Origin: Roseivirga sp. E12
GTDB taxonomy: Bacteria; Bacteroidota; Bacteroidia; Cytophagales; Cyclobacteriaceae
Direction of reading: 5' to 3'
Length of the DNA stretch: 64,000 bases
Assembly (NCBI RefSeq): GCF_017592825.1
Contig: NZ_JAGFMD010000003.1
Span: forward strand, 124,001-188,000
In this document: positions 40,777-53,171 of the stretch, one piece after another
How positions within the stretch are numbered: position 1 is the stretch's first letter
Layout of the letters: each line of letters opens with the position of its first letter
Notes under the pieces: model-generated
Told to the model about the DNA's origin: nothing
What the model saw: the letters and a program-made list of their open reading frames with translations, nothing else
Databases searched by the model: none
Made by a program: the position numbers and the translations under genes

Positions 40777-41265
40777 CTAGTCTTTCACATATTTTGAGAA
40801 CTGCTCATTCCAGCGTTTTTGATATCGGATGAAGAATCTTGCGCCCAAGAGCATTATCACTCCAGTCGCTATACCTACCATTCCGAAAAAGGGAGTCTCT
40901 GGTATCCTGGTAAATGTTTCGGATGCAAAAGCAGCATAAAGGCCAATGACCGACCAATACATAAAGCCCAAGTGGCGGTAAATCCACCTTTTGCTTTTCC
41001 TTCTTATCGCAGGAATCATCCCAGCCAAAAGTGTTAACAGACTGCCAATTGCACCGTAGTGAAAGATACCGAAAGTGCCAAAGAGCCGATAGGTCATGAA
41101 GGCAGTAAGGTTTAGAATAAGCATGGATATGGCATAGACATAGCCAACTTGTTTGTGGAACTTTGTTCCCTTTCGCGCTCCTATCACTATAGTGCCTGCA
41201 ACGGTAGCTACCAATGAGGCAATTAAGTGTACGAGGCCAATTTCACTTCCTACTAAGTTGTTCAT
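40777..41265 (-). CDS. DUF2306-like integral membrane protein
   Basis: A 162-residue protein with four to five membrane helices. The first helix pair (LVHLIASLVATVAGTIVIGA, then KGTKFHKQVGYVYA) holds the conserved His residues of DUF2306-type proteins; RHLGFMYWSVIGLYAAF resembles the matching region of the 43075-43749 protein. It is the last gene of the LytTR operon, 4 bases past the response regulator. Related paralogues flank both sides of the kinase pair, suggesting a linked role, perhaps sensing. Confidence 0.78.
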   Translation of the reverse strand: MNNLVGSEIGLVHLIASLVATVAGTIVIGARKGTKFHKQVGYVYAISMLILNLTAFMTYRLFGTFGIFHYGAIGSLLTLLAGMIPAIRRKSKRWIYRHLGFMYWSVIGLYAAFASETFTRIPETPFFGMVGIATGVIMLLGARFFIRYQKRWNEQFSKYVKD

Positions 41266-41269
41266 GCAA

Positions 41270-42028
41270 CTATCTGTCTAACCATTTTTTAAACTCCTGT
41301 ACTTTGTCTCGACTGACTATAGCATCCATATCATCTGAATGCTTTAGAATAAGCCTTAATCGACTGTTTGAATACGTCACTATGTCTTTGACGGCATCGA
41401 GAGAAACAAGATATTTTCTATTAATTCTAAAGAATTGCTCCGGACTGACCAGTTGCTCTACCTGTTCTAAGGTATAATCTATAATGAACCTGTTCTTCTC
41501 GATGGTTTGCAGATAGGTGGCTTTTTCTTGACTGAAGAAATAGGCTGTATCGTTAGTGGCAATTGTGTGAATATGCTCTCCTATTTTGACCACAAATCGT
41601 TCTTTGTACTTCTTTGTCATCATCTGCATGGCCTGCTCGATAAGTGCCATATTCATTGAAGGAACCTCTCTTTTGGCAAACAAATCCTCGTACTTCTTGA
41701 GCGCATTGCCTAACTCTTCCGGATCGATCGGCTTTAATAGGTAGTCGATGCTATTCAATTTGAAGGCTTGAATAGCATACTCATCAAAAGCCGTTGTAAA
41801 AATGATCGGAGCACTCACTTGGACTTGCTCTAGAATTTCAAAGCTGAGTCCATCGGCAAGTTGTATATCAAAGAATAATAGATCGGCCTCGTTTTCATTT
41901 AGCCACTTCACAGCTCTCTTGACAGAGTCTAGCTGAGCAAGGATCTCTATGCTGGGGTTCAAATCATGTAGAAGCCTTGTTAGCCTTTTCGCGGCCATCG
42001 ACTCATCTTCGACTAATAGTACTTTCAT
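41270..42028 (-). CDS. LytTR family response regulator (module 1)
   Basis: A 252-residue regulator: receiver domain (residues 1-115) with acidic pocket VEDES, phospho-acceptor Asp in LFFDIQLADG and Lys in YLLKPIDPEE, then a LytTR DNA-binding domain (about 145-250; RFVVKIGEHIHTI, FFRINRKYLVSLDAV, RDKVQEFKKWL). Its ATG overlaps the end of the kinase gene by 4 bases, so kinase and regulator are a translationally coupled pair. LytTR proteins bind two direct repeats about 21 bp apart, and such repeats precede the TPR and TonB-receptor genes nearby. Confidence 0.94.
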   Translation of the reverse strand: MKVLLVEDESMAAKRLTRLLHDLNPSIEILAQLDSVKRAVKWLNENEADLLFFDIQLADGLSFEILEQVQVSAPIIFTTAFDEYAIQAFKLNSIDYLLKPIDPEELGNALKKYEDLFAKREVPSMNMALIEQAMQMMTKKYKERFVVKIGEHIHTIATNDTAYFFSQEKATYLQTIEKNRFIIDYTLEQVEQLVSPEQFFRINRKYLVSLDAVKDIVTYSNSRLRLILKHSDDMDAIVSRDKVQEFKKWLDR

Positions 42029-43059
42029 TCGGAAAAAGACAACAATGGGAGTTTGACAATAAATTCTGAATCAGTTTCCTGAATTTCAACCTTCGTTGGG
42101 CTAAGAAATTCGTAGCGAGCCTTTATATTCTTTAGGCCAACACCAGAAGATTCTTCAATTGGAATGTTCTTCTTTTGAAGATTATTCTTGATGACCAATA
42201 GCTCACCATTTTCGATGTGTACGTCAATATATAGAGGCTCTTCTTCGGCAATGGTGTTGTGTTTAATCGCATTTTCAAAGAGCATTTGCAGCGCGATTGG
42301 CGGAATCATTCTGTTCTCGTACCCGCTAATGTCAATCTTGACTTTCAGCTTGTCGTCAAATCGAATCCTTTGAAGAAAAAGGTAGGAGTTCACAAAGGCA
42401 AGTTCCGTTTCCAGCGGTACAACTTCCTTCGATTGATTATCCAAAACGTAGCGATACACCTTGGATAATTTTCGAATAAAGTCTGCTGCCATGTCTTGGT
42501 CTTCATACACAAGATTGGTCAAGGCATTGAGGCTATTGAACAGAAAATGAGGGTTGACCTGATTTTTTAGCGACTCATACTTTGTTGACATCTGCTCCCT
42601 CTTGATACGTTCTGTATCTAAGGAGGCTTTTCTCCAATTGTCCAAGAAGGTCTTCGCGAACATAAAAAAGGTGATGAAAAAGGTAATTCCGATGGAGATC
42701 AGAACATCGACTCCGCCCCAATTTGTGCTTACCCCTGGCAGTAGATTGTATGAGGTATTAAGTCCCACAATAACCAGAGGGGTGTAGACGAGCACTGTAA
42801 TGACTCCGATGATAAACCTCTTGCCTGGTTGCTCTAGCCAAGAGATTCTTTTGTTCCAGAAATCGACCAGATATGAGTTTCCTTTCCAAAAGAAAAGCCA
42901 CATAAAGCCGGAGTAAGTCATGCTTAAGCGAATGTTGATCCATGGCTTATTAAAAAGGCTGGTATCAAAGACAAAAGCCATTGCACAGCCTAGGGCAAAT
43001 ATGAGAATGAAATGCACCAGCTCCCTTTGCCAAACTTTCTTGAACGTATAAATCGCCAT
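42025..43059 (-). CDS. LytS-type sensor histidine kinase (module 1)
   Basis: A 344-residue kinase with four membrane helices in residues 1-145, then the His_kinase motif QVNPHFLFNSLNALTN, and an ATPase part with QMLFENAIKHN and SGVGLKNIKARYEF. No periplasmic sensor domain is visible, so it senses within the membrane or through the adjacent membrane proteins. Partner is the LytTR regulator overlapping its 3' end. Confidence 0.94.
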   Translation of the reverse strand: MAIYTFKKVWQRELVHFILIFALGCAMAFVFDTSLFNKPWINIRLSMTYSGFMWLFFWKGNSYLVDFWNKRISWLEQPGKRFIIGVITVLVYTPLVIVGLNTSYNLLPGVSTNWGGVDVLISIGITFFITFFMFAKTFLDNWRKASLDTERIKREQMSTKYESLKNQVNPHFLFNSLNALTNLVYEDQDMAADFIRKLSKVYRYVLDNQSKEVVPLETELAFVNSYLFLQRIRFDDKLKVKIDISGYENRMIPPIALQMLFENAIKHNTIAEEEPLYIDVHIENGELLVIKNNLQKKNIPIEESSGVGLKNIKARYEFLSPTKVEIQETDSEFIVKLPLLSFSE

Positions 43060-43820: not shown

Positions 43821-44465
43821 TTATTGACCACATTGTTTGATGATGCCTTCTGCCATCGCTTTCCCCCAGTTTGGTTCTAGCGTCACATTGGCCTCTTCTG
43901 CCTCAAAGGCTGGAATAGTTTGCTTGACCTTTGCGCATGGCTGGTCAGTTGGCGACCCAAAGAATTGTGCCATACCAAGCTGCATCTGTCCTAATAACAT
44001 GTTAGCACGTGGGTTTTCAGGGGCTATTCTTACTGCCATGCTAAATTGTTGCATAGCCTTACCAGACATCATTTGACCTCTAGAATTAGGGTCTGCCGCT
44101 AACTGAGTCATGTAGTTGAAACCCTGAAGGGCCACTACTTCCGCATTATTGGGCTCGAGAGCGATTGCTTTGTCTATAAACTCTTGTGCTTTTGTAGTGT
44201 ACTTGTCTTTAGTGCTGATGCCTTCAGCCATGTAAGACATATTGATATAGTTAAGTGCAACGTAGTAGCTAGGTAACCATTCTTCATCAACCTTAGCTGC
44301 AATTCTTTCAAACTGACTGGCCACAGCCTGTCTGTCTTCAATGGTCTTTACAGTAGACATTTGAGTTAATGCCTTTGACATTGCTTTAGTGTAAGCTTCC
44401 TTACCTTGCCCGTGAAGCGCGAATCCTGCGACTAATAATCCGATTAATAAAAATATCTTTTTCAT
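43821..44465 (-). CDS. Secreted TPR-repeat protein, predicted LytTR target
   Basis: A 214-residue protein, using the ATG at 44465 that opens a signal peptide (MKKIFLLIGLLVAGFALHGQ). Three to four TPR-like repeats follow, for example KAQEFIDKAIALEPNNAEVV and MQQFSMAVRIAPENPRANML. Similar proteins occur next to LytTR pairs in Bacteroidota. Upstream lie the 9-bp direct repeats (44534-44563) and -7 box TACATTTA (44493-44500) shared with the TonB-receptor promoter. It is the first gene of the run that continues into the DUF2306, kinase and regulator genes. Confidence 0.82.
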   Translation of the reverse strand: MKKIFLLIGLLVAGFALHGQGKEAYTKAMSKALTQMSTVKTIEDRQAVASQFERIAAKVDEEWLPSYYVALNYINMSYMAEGISTKDKYTTKAQEFIDKAIALEPNNAEVVALQGFNYMTQLAADPNSRGQMMSGKAMQQFSMAVRIAPENPRANMLLGQMQLGMAQFFGSPTDQPCAKVKQTIPAFEAEEANVTLEPNWGKAMAEGIIKQCGQ

Positions 44466-44492: not shown

Positions 44493-44563
44493 TAAATGTA
44501 GTTCGAACCTGCGAAGCGGCATAAAAGGATTGACCGAACCGTAGAATAAGCCAGATGAATCGT
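44493..44563 (-). promoter_or_regulatory. Predicted LytTR-controlled promoter of the TPR gene
   Basis: Plus-strand reading: CCGAACCGT at 44534-44542 and ATGAATCGT at 44555-44563, 21 bp apart. Minus-strand -7 box TACATTTA at 44493-44500, with a 33-bp gap from the nearer repeat. No TTTG -33 element at the normal distance, as expected for an activated promoter. The layout repeats exactly before the TonB-receptor gene. Confidence 0.72.
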
Positions 44564-44602
44564 AGAAGAAGAAAGACTAGTTTTGGTTTACCTTTCTCAA
44601 AA

Positions 44603-44636
44603 CAAAAAATCCCCGGCAAGCCGAGGATTTAAAAAG
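44603..44636 (-). terminator. Intrinsic terminator after the DUF2141 gene
   Basis: On the minus strand, arms AAATCCTCGGC and GCCGGGGATTT around TT are followed by a T run. It closes the TonB-receptor/DUF2141 operon. Confidence 0.85.
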
Positions 44637-44649
44637 AGTTTTTAGGATT

Positions 44650-45096
44650 CTAGAAACCACCTAGATACATTAAATCAACATAAGCGTCAGTATCTTCATC
44701 TACATCAAAAGCAGCATCTTCAAAATCTGGAGGGCCTTGCTCACCCATGGCTTCATTTGAAAATCCATAGCCTTCTAATGGCATTCCGTAGCTGTTGAAA
44801 TCCATTTCTTCATTACCATTTTCATCGTGCAGTACTGCCAAAGCATATTCTCCGACCGGTACATTCTTGAATACTACTTCCACAGATCCTCCATCAGCTT
44901 CCACGTACTTGGTCATAAATGCATCGTCTCCAGGAAACTCGGTTTCTCCATTGTGAAGAGCGATAGCGATATAGCCGTTTTCATTTCTTAGGCTACCAAC
45001 GGTTACCGTTACCGTTACGCCTTCTACTTCTTTTTTTGTAGGAACCATGCCTATCATTAGTCCCATTACGATGATTATTGTTGTGATTGTTTTCAT
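44650..45096 (-). CDS. DUF2141 domain-containing secreted protein
   Basis: A 148-residue protein with a signal peptide (about residues 1-20). The mature part carries the DUF2141 pattern: VTVTVGSLRNENGYIAIALH, VEVVFKNVPVGEYALAVLHD, ENGNEEMDFNSYGMPLEGYG. The N-terminal helix is followed by a very acidic tail. DUF2141 proteins are small envelope proteins common in Bacteroidota, of unknown function. It starts 10 bases after the TonB-receptor stop and shares its operon. Confidence 0.88.
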   Translation of the reverse strand: MKTITTIIIVMGLMIGMVPTKKEVEGVTVTVTVGSLRNENGYIAIALHNGETEFPGDDAFMTKYVEADGGSVEVVFKNVPVGEYALAVLHDENGNEEMDFNSYGMPLEGYGFSNEAMGEQGPPDFEDAAFDVDEDTDAYVDLMYLGGF

Positions 45097-45106
45097 GATT
45101 TTTGAC

Positions 45107-47275
45107 TTATAAATTTTCTAATTGATTTTCCTGTCCGTCTTTGGTAAGCGTGATAAACAAGCCAAGAAAGATAAACCTCTTAGCGCCTTGTCTTACAGGC
45201 TGTCTGTCATAAATACCATCGATGTTTGGCTGAGCTGCGTACTCATAGCCGAATATGTTGTCCCTTCCAAAAATATTGGAAGAAGACATATAAATGATAA
45301 TGTTTTGCTTGAGCAGAATGGCTGCATTCAGACTTAAATCGTGATAATCTGGCGTGCGATCGTTTTGAAAACCAGGCCTGTTTGGGTTGTGAAAAGGCCT
45401 GCTTGATCCATAATTGTAAGTCGCTCCAAATTGTGTCCTTAATGGTTGTACCATGTGCTTCAATACAAATGAAAAGTTGTGCTTAGATAAGAAGGAGGGA
45501 GTCGCCAGCGTGTTGAAGTCTTGATAGTTACGTTCAGAGTCTACAAATGAGTAAGAAACCCAGTAGTCCGTTCCCTTAAAAGTCTTGCCATCTCTCCAGA
45601 ATACATCCACACCCTTGGCTTCACCGAAACCAGTGTTGTTGTAGTTCAATGGATTGAAGTCATTAGGGCTCTGAAACTTTACTAAATCATCATACTTCTT
45701 CCAATAGGTTTCTACTCTGAATACTCTGTTTTCACGGATGTATTGATAGTTGAAAATATGATGTGTTGCCTGCTCAGGAGCCAACTGTCGGTTTACAAAA
45801 GCGTAGTCATTCTGTGCAGATTGCAAAAACTTGCCGTAGGCCAAAGAGAACTGTCCGTAGTCATTTACTTTATAAGACATTGCCAATCGAGGGCTTACCC
45901 AATTTTGATTGACCAATGTTGAATGCTCATAACGAACGCCTGTGCGGAAGACGAGCTTGTTAGATGCGAAGTAGTCTGCTTCGACAAAGCTTCCAATCAT
46001 ATTGTCTTCGAAGCCAAAACTGTCTAAAGGACCATCCGAAAGACCGAAAGATCGATCGAAACGCTTGTGGAAAAATTCACCCCCCATATTGACGGTGATT
46101 TTATCACTTGCATCCCAATTGAGGGCAACTTTACCATGGGCTCCCTTCTCTACTTCATCAATTTTATCGTTGTTGAAGCCTACCTTTTCTTTATTGTAAG
46201 TAGTAGAAAGACCACCACGAATTGACCACTTCTTGTTGAGGATGTCTTTATAACTTGCGTTTACATAAGCATAGTTATTATCTACGCTAATGGTGTCTTT
46301 GATCCCATCTCTATTGATATTAGGGAAGCGGATTCTGAAGTTGGAAACATCAATATTCGTATAGACTTTCAATAGCCCATTCTTGCTGACTTTATGCCTG
46401 AAAACCAGTTCTCCCACTTTGCCGACAGGCGCTTGCTCCCAATCAAAAAATTGACGAACCAAATCTTGATATGGCCTTAAGTCGGTATACTGAATTTTAC
46501 CCGAGACAGAGGTCTTATCCCATTTTTTGGTGTAAGCGAGGTCTCCGCCAACAGACATGAGTGAAATGTCGCCTTGTGTTTTTTCTGCAATGTCATTTGA
46601 ATTTAATACCAAAGCTGAGGACAAGGCCTGTCCATACTCAGCAGAATATCCTCCGGTGCTGAAGGTGACTCCTTTAAATAGGAAAGGACTGAAACGACCA
46701 CGTGTGGGTACATTGGGAGCAGTAGCACCAAAAGCATTTCGGACTTCAAGCCCATCAATAAATACTTTGGTTTCGTAGCCCTCACCACCTCGTACAAAAA
46801 GACGACCTGACTCACCCACGGTGGCTGTTCCTGGAAGTGTATTGATGGCTCCCATAATATCGCCAGCTGCGCTGGCTGTGGTTACAATATCAAGAGGTTT
46901 TAAGACTGTGATTTTTTTAACATCACTGGCTTCATAAGCACCAGCTGTAATGGTTACACCATCAAGCTTATTGATCTCTTCTTGCAAGATTAGATCCAGT
47001 ACCAATGGCTTTCCCGTGAGCTCAATAGGCTTTTCGATATCCTTAAAGCCAATAAAACTGACCACCAGAATATGACTACCAGACTCCTCAGTTTCAAAGA
47101 CGAACGACCCATCCGCTTGAGAGTTGACTCCATCAAAAGTGTCTTTGATGTAAATGTTGGCACCAGGAATGCTGCCTCCCTTGGCATCTTTAACGGTGCC
47201 TTTAATGACCGTTTGCCCAAGAGCACTAACTGTGCTCAGGGCAAAAATTGTTAGGATGAGTTTTAGACGTTGCAT
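45107..47275 (-). CDS. TonB-dependent outer-membrane receptor with carboxypeptidase-regulatory-like domain
   Basis: A 722-residue outer-membrane protein. A signal peptide (residues 1-20, ending ALGQ) is followed by a carboxypeptidase-regulatory-like beta domain (about 22-105: TVIKGTVKDAKGGSIPGANIYI), a plug (about 115-225, with LPGTATVGESGRLFVRGGEG), and a beta-barrel ending in FIFLGLFITLT. There is no SusD partner. It probably imports a siderophore, metal complex or small oligomer. Its promoter carries the 21-bp-spaced LytTR-type repeats, so expression is predicted to follow the module 1 LytTR regulator. Confidence 0.93.
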   Translation of the reverse strand: MQRLKLILTIFALSTVSALGQTVIKGTVKDAKGGSIPGANIYIKDTFDGVNSQADGSFVFETEESGSHILVVSFIGFKDIEKPIELTGKPLVLDLILQEEINKLDGVTITAGAYEASDVKKITVLKPLDIVTTASAAGDIMGAINTLPGTATVGESGRLFVRGGEGYETKVFIDGLEVRNAFGATAPNVPTRGRFSPFLFKGVTFSTGGYSAEYGQALSSALVLNSNDIAEKTQGDISLMSVGGDLAYTKKWDKTSVSGKIQYTDLRPYQDLVRQFFDWEQAPVGKVGELVFRHKVSKNGLLKVYTNIDVSNFRIRFPNINRDGIKDTISVDNNYAYVNASYKDILNKKWSIRGGLSTTYNKEKVGFNNDKIDEVEKGAHGKVALNWDASDKITVNMGGEFFHKRFDRSFGLSDGPLDSFGFEDNMIGSFVEADYFASNKLVFRTGVRYEHSTLVNQNWVSPRLAMSYKVNDYGQFSLAYGKFLQSAQNDYAFVNRQLAPEQATHHIFNYQYIRENRVFRVETYWKKYDDLVKFQSPNDFNPLNYNNTGFGEAKGVDVFWRDGKTFKGTDYWVSYSFVDSERNYQDFNTLATPSFLSKHNFSFVLKHMVQPLRTQFGATYNYGSSRPFHNPNRPGFQNDRTPDYHDLSLNAAILLKQNIIIYMSSSNIFGRDNIFGYEYAAQPNIDGIYDRQPVRQGAKRFIFLGLFITLTKDGQENQLENL

Positions 47276-47297
47276 TGCTTTTGAGTGTTTGATAGCT

Positions 47298-47368
47298 CAA
47301 ATGTGCAATGGTCATAGGACTCCTATAAATAAGTCTTACCGAATCGTAGGATTGACAGGATGAATCGT
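47298..47368 (-). promoter_or_regulatory. Predicted LytTR-controlled promoter of the TonB-receptor operon
   Basis: Plus-strand reading: CCGAATCGT at 47339-47347 and ATGAATCGT at 47360-47368, 21 bp apart. Minus-strand -7-like CACATTTG at 47298-47305, with a 33-bp gap from the nearer repeat. Same arrangement and spacing as at 44493-44563, and the bases after the -7 box (CTATCAAA here, TTATCAAA there) also agree. Confidence 0.74.
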
Positions 47369-47380
47369 CATGAATTGATT

Positions 47381-49990
47381 TTATTCGTTTCTCAGCGCTT
47401 CCGTTGGATTGATTCTATTCGATTGCCAAGTCTTAAGGGCAGCGATTAGGTAGATGATAGTAAAGGTCATCAGTATGGCGGTCAGGAAGGTGAAGACTCC
47501 AAGATCAATTCTATAATTAAAATTATTCAACCACTCACTGAGCATATACCAAGTGACAGGAATTGCAATCACGTTCGCAATAATCATCAGGCGCACGTAG
47601 GTGTTTGATAGTAATAGTAACACCTGCTGAGTTTTTACACCCAGTACTTTTCTGATGGCCAACTCACGAGTGCGCTCCTGAACAGCGAAAGTCAAAAGGG
47701 CATAAAGACCCAATACCGCCAAAAGGATAGCTACAAATGTTAGTACACCCACAATTTTGCTTGTTCTCGTCTCCGCCTCGTAGAGCTTAGCAAAGCTTTG
47801 ATCCATAAACGAAAACTCGAACTGCATCTCGGGTAATACCTCAGAATATGCAGCGCCTAGAGAGGATATTAATGCCGGAACATTGCTTCCGTCTAATTTT
47901 ACTGCCAATTGGTTATGATTTCTATTGGCTCTGATTACCAATACACAGGGGTCAACATTGTGATGTAAAGACCTGAAGTTGTAATTTTTTACGACCCCGG
48001 AAATGGGGACGGCACTCGCTTGACCGAAGGCGCTGAAAGACTTACCCAGGGCACTTTCCCAGCCAATTTGCTTTAGGGCCGCTTCGTTCAAAATGTACTG
48101 GGTGTTTTGATTGCTTCTGATAGACGCCAAATCTCCTTCGATCAGCTCCATGTCTACGGTTTCTACGAAGTTCTCATCCGCTCCAATCAAAAACATGCTA
48201 ATTGGCTCTTGCTGTCCTTCCCACCATACGGTCTGGTTCCAGTTAGCACCTCCTGGTCTAAAGTCTGTGGCAGATACATTTTTTACTCCTGAGATCTGTT
48301 CGAATCTCGAAGCCAGCAGGTCACCATTCTCTTGAGCAGTTGTATTGCTCAGGGCCACATTGACGATTTGATCTTTGGACATTCCCAAATCCTTGTTTCC
48401 AAGAAAATTGAGCTGTTTGTATATGAAAATGCTTGATAGGATGAGTACTGTTGAGATACAGAATTGGAGGCCGAGCAGTATATTTTTGAAGGTATTTCCT
48501 TTGTTTCCTGTTTTCAGTCCACCTTTTAGAGCACTTATAGGCTGGGAGGAGATAATGAAAAATGCAATATAAGAACCTGAACTTAAGGCAATCAAAAGCA
48601 CTAAGCTCGCTACGACTGAAAGCATAAATGGATCAGTCAGATTCAAGGTGATTTGGCTATTCATAAGATCATTCACAGCGGGAATGAATAAATAACTTGA
48701 CAGAAGGATCGAAGCGACCGAAGCAAAAAATGCGATCAAGAACGACTCGGCTATAAACTGTATGATCAACTGGCCTCGGCTGGCGCCAACTACTTTTCTG
48801 ATGCCAACCTCTTTCAGTCTTTTGGTTGAACCCGCAATGCTAAGGTTTACAAAGTTGATAAAGGAGATAAACAGTATAGCCAAAGCAATGGCTCCATAGA
48901 TATAGATGTATTTGAAGTTGTAGGCCTGCTTAAGGTTTCCTCTATTATCAACAAAGTGGATCTCTGATAGAGGCTGAATACCGATTTGGCTGAGGTCAAA
49001 ATTTCTATTATCACCAATATTAACTTCTGTACTTTGAATTTTAGCTTGTACGCTAGCGGGATCGCTACCCTTTGCCAATTCCAGATAGGCGAAGTAATTG
49101 AATTGGCCCCAGTTTGCAGTCAGGCTGGTTCCGGGAAGAATCGTTTCTAAGTTTAAAAATGAGCTTAGAAAGTCGAACTCAAAATGAGCGTTGAAGGGGA
49201 TGTCTTCAAAAACTCCAGAAACTAGAAAATCATGCTGATCATCAACCCGTATGGTTTTGCCCATAGGATCCTCATTGCCAAAGTATTTTTTGGCAGAAGA
49301 AGCTGATAGAATAACATTGTTGAGACCAGCCAGAGCAGATGACTTTTCTCCTCTGATCATATTGATGCTGAATATTTCTAGAATGTCAGGATCAGCAAGG
49401 AAGAATTTACTTTCGCTAAAAATGGTGTTGTTGTACTCAACGGTCACCTGAGGGTCGCGTGTGATATTCGTCAGCCTGGTATAACGCTCTATTTCAGGAA
49501 TATTTCGTTTAAGTGTCGGAGGCATGGGAGCAGAAACCTTGACCCAACCATTGCCGCCTTTTACATCACCCGTAATGAGCCTATGAACTTGATCTACCTT
49601 AGTATTATACTGGTCATAGCTCAACTCATAATTGATATGAAGGTAGCAGAGCAGGCAGGCTGCGATGCCAATTGATAGGCCAAACACATTGAGAAAGAAG
49701 TAAAACTTCTGCTTCAAAAGTGCGCGAACCGAGGTTAAAAAATAGTTTCTGAACATGGCGGTAATGTTTGATTTATGTCTGGTGTCTTTTCTTTTTAAAA
49801 TGCCATACCGAAGAAATCGGAAGGTGTTATAAATGAACAGGCCATTAGCTTTGAACCTACTCTTGGCCTGAAGATTAAATTCATATTGTTCCAATAGGTC
49901 TCCAATAATGCCTTCTTGCAGTTGCTCCGGACAAAGAGACTTGAATAAACGTAAGGCCCATTTTGGGGGAGATTCGCTCCGCTTTTTCAT
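47381..49990 (-). CDS. MacB/FtsX-type ABC transporter permease with N-terminal prefix domain
   Basis: An 869-residue permease. Residues 1-85 form the soluble permease-prefix domain (PPKWALRLFKSLCPEQLQEGIIGDLLEQYEF) found when such permeases pair with PadR; then MacB_PCD periplasmic domains and two FtsX membrane blocks (residues about 370-560 and 760-865; EVGIRKVVGASRGQL and ELAIRKVLGVKTQQVL are the conserved cytoplasmic loops). There is no ATPase in the neighbourhood. It lies 2 bases past the PadR gene. It likely exports or handles an envelope-active compound in a stress response. Confidence 0.92.
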   Translation of the reverse strand: MKKRSESPPKWALRLFKSLCPEQLQEGIIGDLLEQYEFNLQAKSRFKANGLFIYNTFRFLRYGILKRKDTRHKSNITAMFRNYFLTSVRALLKQKFYFFLNVFGLSIGIAACLLCYLHINYELSYDQYNTKVDQVHRLITGDVKGGNGWVKVSAPMPPTLKRNIPEIERYTRLTNITRDPQVTVEYNNTIFSESKFFLADPDILEIFSINMIRGEKSSALAGLNNVILSASSAKKYFGNEDPMGKTIRVDDQHDFLVSGVFEDIPFNAHFEFDFLSSFLNLETILPGTSLTANWGQFNYFAYLELAKGSDPASVQAKIQSTEVNIGDNRNFDLSQIGIQPLSEIHFVDNRGNLKQAYNFKYIYIYGAIALAILFISFINFVNLSIAGSTKRLKEVGIRKVVGASRGQLIIQFIAESFLIAFFASVASILLSSYLFIPAVNDLMNSQITLNLTDPFMLSVVASLVLLIALSSGSYIAFFIISSQPISALKGGLKTGNKGNTFKNILLGLQFCISTVLILSSIFIYKQLNFLGNKDLGMSKDQIVNVALSNTTAQENGDLLASRFEQISGVKNVSATDFRPGGANWNQTVWWEGQQEPISMFLIGADENFVETVDMELIEGDLASIRSNQNTQYILNEAALKQIGWESALGKSFSAFGQASAVPISGVVKNYNFRSLHHNVDPCVLVIRANRNHNQLAVKLDGSNVPALISSLGAAYSEVLPEMQFEFSFMDQSFAKLYEAETRTSKIVGVLTFVAILLAVLGLYALLTFAVQERTRELAIRKVLGVKTQQVLLLLSNTYVRLMIIANVIAIPVTWYMLSEWLNNFNYRIDLGVFTFLTAILMTFTIIYLIAALKTWQSNRINPTEALRNE

Positions 49991-49992
49991 TG

Positions 49993-50319
49993 CTATAGCG
50001 GCTTTAGTTCAGGAAGTTGATCCCATAAGTTTTGGCGCTTCTCATTTACTTGTTGAAGTAATTTTACCCCTAAAGAGGTAAGCTGAAAAATACGCTTTCT
50101 TCGGCCACCCCTTTGCGATGTTGCACCCCCATAAAAAGACCTGACAAAACCTTTGTCTTCCAATCTATAGAGCGTGACATGAACAGCGCTGAGATTAACC
50201 GACCGATCCATTCTCGCCTTTATTTCCTGCACTATGTTGATGCCATATGCTTCGTCTTTAAGAATGGCGCAAGTCAGCATGACCAATTCCTCAAATTCAC
50301 CCAGATAGTTACCTTTCAT
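49993..50319 (-). CDS. PadR family transcriptional regulator
   Basis: A 108-residue winged-helix protein: LVMLTCAILKDEAYGINIVQEI, the recognition region LSAVHVTLYRLEDKGFVRSF, then the wing QRGGRRKRIFQLTSLG. Small PadR proteins of this type lie directly ahead of MacB-type permease genes in Bacteroidota and repress them. The perfect palindrome at 50346-50357 in its upstream region may be its operator. Confidence 0.93.
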   Translation of the reverse strand: MKGNYLGEFEELVMLTCAILKDEAYGINIVQEIKARMDRSVNLSAVHVTLYRLEDKGFVRSFYGGATSQRGGRRKRIFQLTSLGVKLLQQVNEKRQNLWDQLPELKPL

Positions 50320-50410: not shown

Positions 50411-51157
50411 CTAGTATTTCAAAACTTCCTTGAGCTTGCCATGACCGCTTCTACTTACGGGTAATTGGCTTCCTGTCTTGAGAGAGAGGAGGTAGGAATC
50501 TTTTTCGTAGAGCTCCAGCTTCTCGATTTGCTTGACGTTGACAATGTGAGACCTGTGAATACGAACAAATTCGCCTTTAGGCAATCGGTTCTCTAAATGC
50601 TTCATGCGAAGAAGCTTCAGATACTTGCCTTGTTCCGAATGGATGGCAACATAATCATCCTGCGCCTCAAAGTGAGAGATGCTTTCTAATGGAAGAATCT
50701 GGATTTTGTTGCCGGTTTTGACAACAATTCTATCGAGAGACTCATCACTTTCTGACCTAGTCTCTTGAAGAGTTTCCAATTCAGCCTTAGCGGCTCCTTT
50801 GGTACCTACCTTGGTCTTAGCCTTTTCTATAGCCTCGTTAAAACGCTCTTCAGCATAGGGTTTCAATAAGTAGTCTGTCGCATTTAGTTCGAATGCCTTG
50901 ATTGCATATTGGTCAAAAGCAGTACTGAATATGACTACTGGAGGCTCATCCAAAAGCTCTAGCATCTCAAAGCCGGTAATTTTGGGCATTTGAACATCCA
51001 GAAAAATCAGATCAGGGTTGTGTTCCTGAATGGCCTTTAAACCTTGAAAGCCATCTCCACATTCAGCGATCACTTCGATTTCACTAAATTTTTGTAGGTA
51101 GGCCTTGATCAGGTCTCTTGCTAAACTTTCATCATCGATGATAATGGCTCGGATCAT
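50411..51157 (-). CDS. LytTR family response regulator (module 2)
   Basis: A 248-residue regulator: receiver domain with IIDDES, phospho-acceptor Asp in LIFLDVQMPKITG and Lys in YLLKPYAEERF; LytTR DNA-binding domain in the C-terminal half (RIVVKTGNKIQIL, FVRIHRSHIVNVKQI, ending LPVSRSGHGKLKEV). ATG overlaps the kinase gene by 4 bases. Target candidates are the nearby LiaF-like gene, whose promoter has a 21-bp-spaced repeat, and perhaps the padR/permease genes that follow. Confidence 0.94.
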   Translation of the reverse strand: MIRAIIIDDESLARDLIKAYLQKFSEIEVIAECGDGFQGLKAIQEHNPDLIFLDVQMPKITGFEMLELLDEPPVVIFSTAFDQYAIKAFELNATDYLLKPYAEERFNEAIEKAKTKVGTKGAAKAELETLQETRSESDESLDRIVVKTGNKIQILPLESISHFEAQDDYVAIHSEQGKYLKLLRMKHLENRLPKGEFVRIHRSHIVNVKQIEKLELYEKDSYLLSLKTGSQLPVSRSGHGKLKEVLKY

Positions 51158-52209
51158 AAGTCAGTGGCGATTTGAGGAATATCTAATCGAACGGTGAATA
51201 AGTTATCAGTCTTCTCAGTAAATACCAATTGAGGGACCCCATAAATCAAGTGGAGTCGTTCTCCCACGTTTTTTAAGCCTATTCCTTTTCCCTTTTTACC
51301 TGTAGCTTCAGGATCAAATTGATTAGTGACTTCAACCCTAAGGATGTTTTGATCTTGCCATGCCTTGAGACTGACAGTGACCTTTTCCAGACTTTCATAA
51401 ATACCATGTTTAATGGCATTTTCGAATAAAGGTTGAAGAATCAGGTTGGGGAGTTTAAGTTGAAGAGACTCTTTACTAATTTCTGTTTCCACGGAAAGCC
51501 GATCCCCAAAACGGACTTTTTCAATATCAAGATAGAGGATGATGTTGTTCAACTCATCCTTCATGGTATTCATTTGGTCGTTTTCCTTACCGAGGGAGTA
51601 TCTAAGAAATTCGGAAAGCTTGATGACCATATCACGAGCCTTTTCAGGAGAGACAATGGTAAGCGAAGCTATAGAGTTAAGACTATTGAAAATAAAGTGC
51701 GGGTTGATCTGGGATTTCAACATCTCCAACTCAGAACTCTTAAGCATGGTCTCTAACTGGGAGCGCTCATTGTTCTTTTGAGTAAGATCATCATAGTACA
51801 GAATAAGGTAATACACCAAAATGATGATAGAGTAATACATTAAGCCTAATGCCGAACGCCAAGGAATGGATTGATTTAAAAAGATCAGATATTCCTCATC
51901 TGCTGAGACCCTTACTAGAATACTCTTAGATAGAAATATTGCCAAGGCAATGGAAATCACCAAAGCTGCCACATGACTCATGGCAAGGTTTAGCAGTTGT
52001 GACTTTTCAAAGGAGTTGTATCGGACATTAAACCAGTAGGCGAGGCCTAAGCCAAAGAAAATACCATTGAATACCAAGCTATCAAGGGCAGCGATTTTGG
52101 CTTCAAAATCATAGAAATAGTATAGGGCAAAGGCAAATAACCCTCCGATCACCAACCAGATGATGGAATAAATGATGATACTTCTATTTCGGATAAAGGG
52201 GTGGTCCAT
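51154..52209 (-). CDS. LytS-type sensor histidine kinase (module 2)
   Basis: A 351-residue kinase with four membrane helices (residues 12-145), His_kinase motif QINPHFIFNSLNSIAS and ATPase motifs LILQPLFENAIKHG and GKGIGLKNVGERLHL. Partner is the LytTR regulator overlapping its 3' end. Its start codon lies one hairpin away from the LiaF-like gene; see the terminator-like structure at 52210-52231. Confidence 0.94.
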   Translation of the reverse strand: MDHPFIRNRSIIIYSIIWLVIGGLFAFALYYFYDFEAKIAALDSLVFNGIFFGLGLAYWFNVRYNSFEKSQLLNLAMSHVAALVISIALAIFLSKSILVRVSADEEYLIFLNQSIPWRSALGLMYYSIIILVYYLILYYDDLTQKNNERSQLETMLKSSELEMLKSQINPHFIFNSLNSIASLTIVSPEKARDMVIKLSEFLRYSLGKENDQMNTMKDELNNIILYLDIEKVRFGDRLSVETEISKESLQLKLPNLILQPLFENAIKHGIYESLEKVTVSLKAWQDQNILRVEVTNQFDPEATGKKGKGIGLKNVGERLHLIYGVPQLVFTEKTDNLFTVRLDIPQIATDL

Positions 52210-53103: not shown

Positions 53104-53171
53104 CAAATGTACGGGGTCTTTAGGCCTTGCGGGTTCGTGAAATCGGTAAACGCACGCCAGCACTCGGTAAA
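53104..53171 (-). promoter_or_regulatory. Predicted LytTR-type promoter of the LiaF-like gene
   Basis: Plus-strand TCGGTAAA at 53143-53150 and again at 53164-53171 (exact 21-bp period); a related TCGGTGAA lies at 53215-53222. Minus-strand -7 box TACATTTG at 53104-53111 matches TAnnTTTG perfectly, 31 bp from the nearer repeat. This is the same layout as the module 1 promoters but with a different half-site. Confidence 0.6.

Follow-up and report, generated by a model that had tools for sequence, protein, structure and literature searches.

The DNA analyzed here is a 64,000-nucleotide stretch of Roseivirga sp. E12 (hereafter the window; NCBI RefSeq assembly GCF_017592825.1, contig NZ_JAGFMD010000003.1, positions 124,001 to 188,000). 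On its minus strand lie genes for a TonB-dependent receptor and a DUF2141 protein, followed by genes for a short tetratricopeptide repeat (TPR)-like protein, a membrane protein, a LytS-type histidine kinase (HK1) and a response regulator with receiver and LytTR domains (RR1). A pair of direct repeats precedes the receptor gene, and a similar pair precedes the TPR gene. Both are predicted to be binding sites for RR1, and sequence comparisons make it highly likely that RR1 activates its own unit together with the TonB receptor and DUF2141 genes, as an autoregulated LytTR regulon.

Gene content and the two repeat sites

In the coding (minus) orientation, the two sites have the form ACGATTCAT-N12-ACGRTTCGG and are followed by 33 bp and a TAnnTTTG-like -7 box. 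The 9-bp repeats described in an earlier note on this DNA, 21 bp from start to start, are exact on the forward strand: CCGAACCGT (44534-44542) and ATGAATCGT (44555-44563) before the TPR gene, and CCGAATCGT (47339-47347) and ATGAATCGT (47360-47368) before the receptor gene. That note was also right in giving both sites an equal 33-bp gap to the -7-like octamer, with YTATCAAA after each octamer, and in finding no TTTG in the -33 slot of either promoter; the slot is nevertheless T-rich. Each gene begins downstream of its own site, at 44465 (TPR) and 47275 (receptor). The two sites have 23 of 30 letters in common and the two gaps only 12 of 33, so the sites are not one long duplication.

The fixed geometry, which is observed directly, was compared with published LytTR promoters. 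Almost all LytTR sites are described as 9- to 11-bp repeats with 11- to 13-bp spacers (PMC4847170), and LytTR promoters as having 9-bp direct repeats, usually with 12 bp between them, that strongly favor a position 10 bp upstream of the -35 element (PMC6193735). Both sites have the form 9 bp-12 bp-9 bp and fall within these ranges, and the LytTR-style footprint claimed earlier agrees with this architecture. The repeats lie about 10 bp upstream of the -33 slot, where the -33 element is a T-tract only, and the 33-bp gap decomposes as 10 + 4 + 19 bp, in agreement with the published geometry. The -7 consensus of Flavobacterium sigma-A is TAnnTTTG, at -12 to -5 (PMC9723704). A scan for the sigma-70 consensus gave 24 matches against 27.2 expected and was uninformative for this DNA.

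Coordinates of the features are collected in Table 1. As in other LytTR-type two-component systems, RR1 joins a receiver to a LytTR domain and is encoded beside a PF06580 kinase, HK1, the two genes overlapping by 4 bp. The earlier note had pointed to this kinase/regulator pair (41270-43059), and the expected LytS-type kinase and receiver-LytTR domains were found; it had overlooked a second LytTR pair nearer to the receptor gene (50411-52209; RR2 and HK2). The membrane protein gene (43075), the DUF2306 gene (40777) and an open reading frame (40000) are same-strand neighbors at gaps of 4 to 71 bp. In NCBIfam, HK1 and the DUF2141 protein had no match and the TPR protein weak matches only. A solved-structure search gave no match for the receptor at E 0.001, while with the RR1 alignment nearly all of the best 60 of 227 matches were receiver proteins.

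Table 1. Features of the locus and of the neighboring LytTR pair (window positions)
Feature	Position	Strand	Basis or remark
DUF2306 membrane protein	40777..41265	-	Pfam; 4 bp after RR1
RR1, receiver + LytTR domains, proposed regulator of both sites	41270..42028	-	PF00072 58.4 bits, PF04397 70.6 bits, both above cut-off
HK1, LytS-type His_kinase (PF06580), hydrophobic N-terminal segments	42025..43059	-	Pfam 92.3 bits
Membrane protein, 224 aa	43075..43749	-	YtpI-like match below cut-off
Short TPR-like protein, 214 aa, hydrophobic signal-like N-terminus	43821..44465	-	TPR match below Pfam cut-off
-7-like box TACATTTA, TPR promoter	44493..44500	-	33 bp after site 1
T-rich tract near -33 slot of TPR promoter	44520..44527	-	Sequence
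LytTR direct-repeat site 1, before TPR/membrane protein/HK1/RR1	44534..44563	-	Repeat 1 44563-44555 ACGATTCAT, repeat 2 44542-44534 ACGGTTCGG
Terminator-like hairpin between DUF2141 and TPR unit	44607..44630	-	18 such sites in 12.5-kb region vs 9.8 expected: suggestive only
DUF2141 protein, 148 aa	44650..45096	-	Pfam; 10 bp after receptor gene
TonB-dependent receptor, 722 aa, CarboxypepD_reg + Plug domains	45107..47275	-	Pfam
-7-like box CACATTTG, receptor promoter	47298..47305	-	33 bp after site 2
T-rich tract, -33 slot of receptor promoter	47325..47332	-	Sequence; T conserved at position 11 after repeat 2 (see text)
LytTR direct-repeat site 2, before TonB receptor/DUF2141	47339..47368	-	Repeat 1 47368-47360 ACGATTCAT, repeat 2 47347-47339 ACGATTCGG
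RR2, second LytTR response regulator, rival regulator	50411..51157	-	BtsR model 201 bits, cut-off 246
HK2, kinase partner of RR2	51154..52209	-	Pfam
Different 21-bp-spaced repeat TTTACCGA-N13-TTTACCGA	53143..53171	-	Before 52297-HK2-RR2 genes

Recurrence of the sites in the genome, the genus and the phylum

The sites are unique in this genome (4.70 Mb, 35 contigs). A genome scan of the kind proposed earlier found the exact pair pattern twice, at these two sites; the next four places all had three mismatches, and since the reversed pattern gave 10 places within three mismatches, these four are at chance level. The predicted regulon of TPR, HK/RR, TonB receptor and DUF2141 genes put forward in the earlier note coincides with the two genome-wide sites. 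In the window, allowing up to three mismatches recovered just these two sites, both with none, compared with a mean of 0.25 in shuffled windows, 3 of 100 of which reached two matches.

In the genus (19 genomes), 60 places matched a degenerate pattern when at most one mismatch was allowed, and 8 matched its reversed control; the pattern was derived from these same loci, so that the test is its low rate elsewhere. The 37 zero-mismatch places divide into 34 in front of receptor, DUF2141 or TPR genes, 2 in front of an operon encoding an ATP-binding cassette (ABC) ATPase and permease, and 1 on a contig in which the receptor and RR1 were not found. The 23 one-mismatch places comprise 6 further receptor, DUF2141 or ABC sites, 7 of another recurrent site form, and 10 unassigned places. 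In Roseivirga the receptor unit and the TPR unit each carry a site, and DUF2141 may stand alone with its own; a site precedes the TPR gene in 14 of the 15 Roseivirga-group loci holding that gene and is weak in the fifteenth. At E <= 1e-100, 3 of the 19 genomes had the ABC operon (L097, L098, L107), each with an RR1-type site in front of it (one mismatch in one of them); the operon is probably an extra member of the regulon, and the Roseivirga sp. E12 genome had no match to it at the same threshold.

Locus L102 (G017:C58) has a receptor-type promoter with its site after RR2, but none of the genes for the receptor, the TPR protein, HK1 and RR1 was found in that stretch; as the genome is 80% complete, this may reflect faulty assembly or a deletion. 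A related site, ACGGTTCATCCG-N8-ACCGRTTGRG or similar, recurs in 7 of the 19 genomes (L065 at G000:C1:29545, L103, L104, L105, L106); in the five that were read, it has on one side a gene resembling a pyridoxal phosphate-dependent sulfur enzyme (by eye) and on the other a gene for a small protein, after which comes a gene for a protein of ~1060 aa.

Relatives were collected by scanning genome contigs with the TPR alignment, and the best 80 of 545 loci, those of named relatives, were kept (L108-L187). Receptor, TPR, HK and RR genes lie on one strand in that order in 76 of the 80. A motif-free scan upstream of the receptor, for pairs of 9-mers agreeing in at least 8 of 9 letters, gave such a pair at 21 bp in 34 of 61 non-Roseivirga loci, compared with 0-9 loci at other spacings from 10 to 40 and 1 at 21 bp in shuffled sequence. 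The generic form ACNNYTCR-N13-ACNNYTCR was present at -200 to -40 of the receptor in 51 of 73 loci (10/12 Roseivirga, 41/61 others), the remaining named loci lacking either a receptor start that could be used or sufficient DNA upstream; elsewhere in these loci it occurred 17 times in 2.32 Mb, or 0.0012 expected per interval searched. When the best -7-like octamer was sought at gaps of 22 to 45 bp from these 51 sites, the gap came out as 33 bp in 48, and position 11 after the repeat was T in all 51. Outside Roseivirga the usual layout is a single receptor-TPR-HK-RR locus with a single site (two in L157, L164 and L168). In Ohtaekwangia koreensis and a close relative (L157:4676, L164:4674), the second repeat precedes an alpha/beta-hydrolase-like gene (by eye) just upstream of the receptor.

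In a phylum-wide sample, the TPR gene was found at E <= 1e-15 in 38 of 198 genomes. Of 37 loci, 32 were counted, leaving out L224 and L227 (no TPR match) and L199, L200 and L211 (no receptor match), and genes encoding proteins with at least 39% identity, a limit set by us, were called RR1-like. Among the 18 loci whose stretch includes an RR1-like gene, 14 had a looser form of the repeat (10/11 at class level), as did 3 of the 14 loci lacking such a gene there, against a background of 0.0075 per interval searched (Fisher p = 0.004, rows not independent). Conservation of the site beside RR1-type genes is thus observed directly. All these loci are related, several are near copies and some were counted in both the named and the genome sets, so that the counts are not independent events.

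Candidate regulators of the two promoters

RR1 is the constant partner of the sites, its gene being the last in the conserved receptor-TPR-HK-RR order. As in autoregulated systems, a site lies before the regulator's own unit and is kept in orthologues, units here being defined from gene order only.

It is unlikely, in our estimate, that a different one of the 44 LytTR proteins in the genome, or a pool of cross-reacting paralogues, binds the repeats, with no dedicated RR1 circuit. The number of LytTR domains itself speaks for such an arrangement, as do two paralogues 48% identical to RR1 and the genomes in which the repeat is at the locus and the RR1-like gene elsewhere; however, the site is almost confined to the RR1-encoding locus and the gene order is widely kept. 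A repeat with a -7 box was also sought in 33 loci of this genome, mostly LytTR neighborhoods (30 of 44, ~1.5-kb flanks), and none was found. This says little, because the 8/9-identity rule used misses both RR1 sites (in the window it recovers the RR2 site alone), and the search is therefore no evidence about other LytTR operons.

Control of the receptor promoter, and perhaps of both promoters, by RR2/HK2 is a remote prospect. This LytTR pair lies on the same strand, ~3 kb upstream of the receptor gene, and in L040 and L051 it stands directly before the receptor gene with a ACGATTCAT-type site between them. The RR2 operon, however, has its own, different repeat (TTTACCGA-N13-TTTACCGA, then GTACATTTG), and the receptor repeat persists in loci with no RR2-like gene. 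RR2-like genes (at least 55% identity) were found in 5 of the 80 named loci, all Roseivirga, within 8-kb flanks outside which some Roseivirga copies lie. RR2 is the less likely regulator because its own operon repeat differs and no close RR2 relative was found in the 8-kb flanks of non-Roseivirga loci. The strict TTTACCGA repeat was present in 8 of 26 sources scanned, 10 of which hold the RR2 operon; the RR2-operon sources with no strict match were L045, which starts inside the first operon gene, and L054, in which the promoter region is present and has no such repeat. A 21-bp-spaced pair at least 8/9 identical was found in 8 of 9 upstream regions of RR2 operons, excluding L045, whose pair is the RR1-type site. 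The two neighboring two-component systems appear, from their promoter sequences, to use one layout with different letters. A second exact copy of the RR2-type repeat is present elsewhere in the genome (G000:C22:136464-136492). Between RR2 and the receptor (47381-50319) are genes for a PadR regulator and an ADOP-type permease, with related genes in only some of the Roseivirga stretches compared.

That the shared layout is a chance likeness or a recent promoter copy of no regulatory meaning is scarcely credible. In favor of this reading, what follows the repeats is of the ordinary Bacteroidota promoter type, and a YTATCAAA-like start region, present at the RR2 promoter too (TAGTCAAA), is not a specific element; against it, the spacing is conserved over several families and other orders of the class, the two copies share only 23 of 30 site letters and 12 of 33 gap letters, and the motif-free spacing scan and generic-repeat counts already contradict it.

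Several observations weigh against RR1 as the dedicated activator. We infer activation rather than repression solely from the position of the sites, and among the 44 LytTR domains the test of a rival by its own motif was limited to RR2. In G017 (genome 80% complete) a site occurs with neither receptor nor RR1. Absence of the repeats before orthologous operons, the outcome against which the earlier note had set its prediction, was not found in most relatives, though the strict generic repeat is missing in 22 of the 73 named loci (20 of the 61 non-Roseivirga loci). A weight matrix built from Roseivirga sites scored at least 12 bits in 10 of these 20; the highest of 80 resampled backgrounds reached 16.3 bits, and 3 of the 10 rescues fall within background, which for this matrix, as for the shuffles of the spacing scan, consisted of first-order resampled sequences and not exact dinucleotide shuffles. 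L134, L137 and L175, among others, had no clear site. Three class-level loci have the repeat and no RR1-like gene in the stretch, the RR1-like genes lying elsewhere in their genomes, and RR1-like genes likewise lie elsewhere in G091, G148, G183 and G206, four genomes with no repeat at the locus; the link between gene and site is therefore one of neighborhood and not of mere presence. Finally, at motif position 4 Algoriphagus-like groups have C, and Roseivirga and others have A or G, a difference that coincides with roughly one deep branching of the RR1 tree. Covariation of this position with RR1 residues such as 152, 208 and 231 was seen but not counted as independent evidence, as two label changes suffice on a tree of 49 RR1 proteins.

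Predicted circuit and related LytTR systems

With RR1 as the regulator, HK1 would sense an envelope or cargo signal and phosphorylate RR1. Two RR1 molecules, two helical turns apart and so facing the same side of the DNA, would then occupy the two repeats at about -75 to -46, ending 10 bp upstream of the -33 slot with its T-tract in place of TTTG. From there RR1 could help the Bacteroidota sigma-A polymerase use the TAnnTTTG-like -7 box. Of the possible modes of action, the likeliest appears to be that phosphorylated RR1 activates a promoter whose -33 element is poor. The outcome would be positive feedback on the TPR-membrane protein-HK1-RR1 unit with co-activation of the TonB receptor and DUF2141. 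In Roseivirga, the receptor-TPR-HK-RR locus would have split, the separate units usually carrying their own copy of the site.

LytTR regulatory systems (LRS) of the Streptococcus mutans type pair a LytTR regulator that has no receiver with a membrane inhibitor. RR1 does not belong to this type, as it has a receiver domain and a kinase partner. LytTR regulators of the AgrA, PlnC-PlnD and ComE type use tandem repeats as sites, as here, and serve peptide quorum sensing. No peptide gene was recognized in this locus, though no specific search for one was made.

HdrRM/BrsRM and relatives resemble the present locus in having 9-bp repeats with a 12-bp spacer ~10 bp before the -35 slot of their own operon, and differ in consisting of a LytTR regulator and a membrane protein with no kinase, where a kinase and a receiver-LytTR protein are encoded here beside a TonB receptor (PMC6193735). 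For HdrRM, positive feedback has been demonstrated (PMC6193735). An LRS example from Bacteroides thetaiotaomicron is unlike these sites: its repeats are 11 bp long, have 11 bp between them and lie 11 bp before TGTA-19 bp-TATCTTTG (PMC6193735). Escherichia coli BtsS/BtsR and YpdA/YpdB share the combination of a LytS-type kinase and a receiver-LytTR regulator; at the yhjX promoter, YpdB binds GGCATTTCAT present as a direct repeat (PMC4847170), and BtsS/BtsR activates a pyruvate transporter gene (PMC10653868). RR1 differs from BtsR, scoring 105 bits against the BtsR cut-off of 246, and in contrast to both E. coli systems the target here is an outer-membrane TonB receptor and the kinase and regulator genes lie inside the controlled locus. 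Searches of an open-access library turned up no work on this TonB receptor/TPR/HK/LytTR locus or on its promoter; a Flavobacterium johnsoniae coevolution study mentions a mutated LytTR regulator of unknown effect (PMC10197871).

A broader proposal, which we put forward tentatively, is that the locus belongs to a widespread, so far unnamed transport-signaling system of Bacteroidota, a dedicated LytS/LytTR pair that mainly controls its own TonB receptor/TPR/DUF2141 locus, the kinase sensing receptor cargo or the state of an envelope complex. If so, the 21-bp repeats and the 33-bp gap may have outlasted divergence into other orders of the class, and the Roseivirga regulon may grow as copies of the site are placed in front of units splitting off or newly joining, the ABC operon among them.

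Judged by its sequence, the locus is very probably a further case of a known type, the autoregulated LytTR regulon. Bacteroidota can carry many LytTR regulators, and a site definition that spans families gives a concrete assignment of a regulator to its targets. The promoter rule (repeat, 33 bp, TAnnTTTG) can be used for scanning other genomes, and the site definition also offers a short, testable route to the cargo of an uncharacterized TonB receptor.

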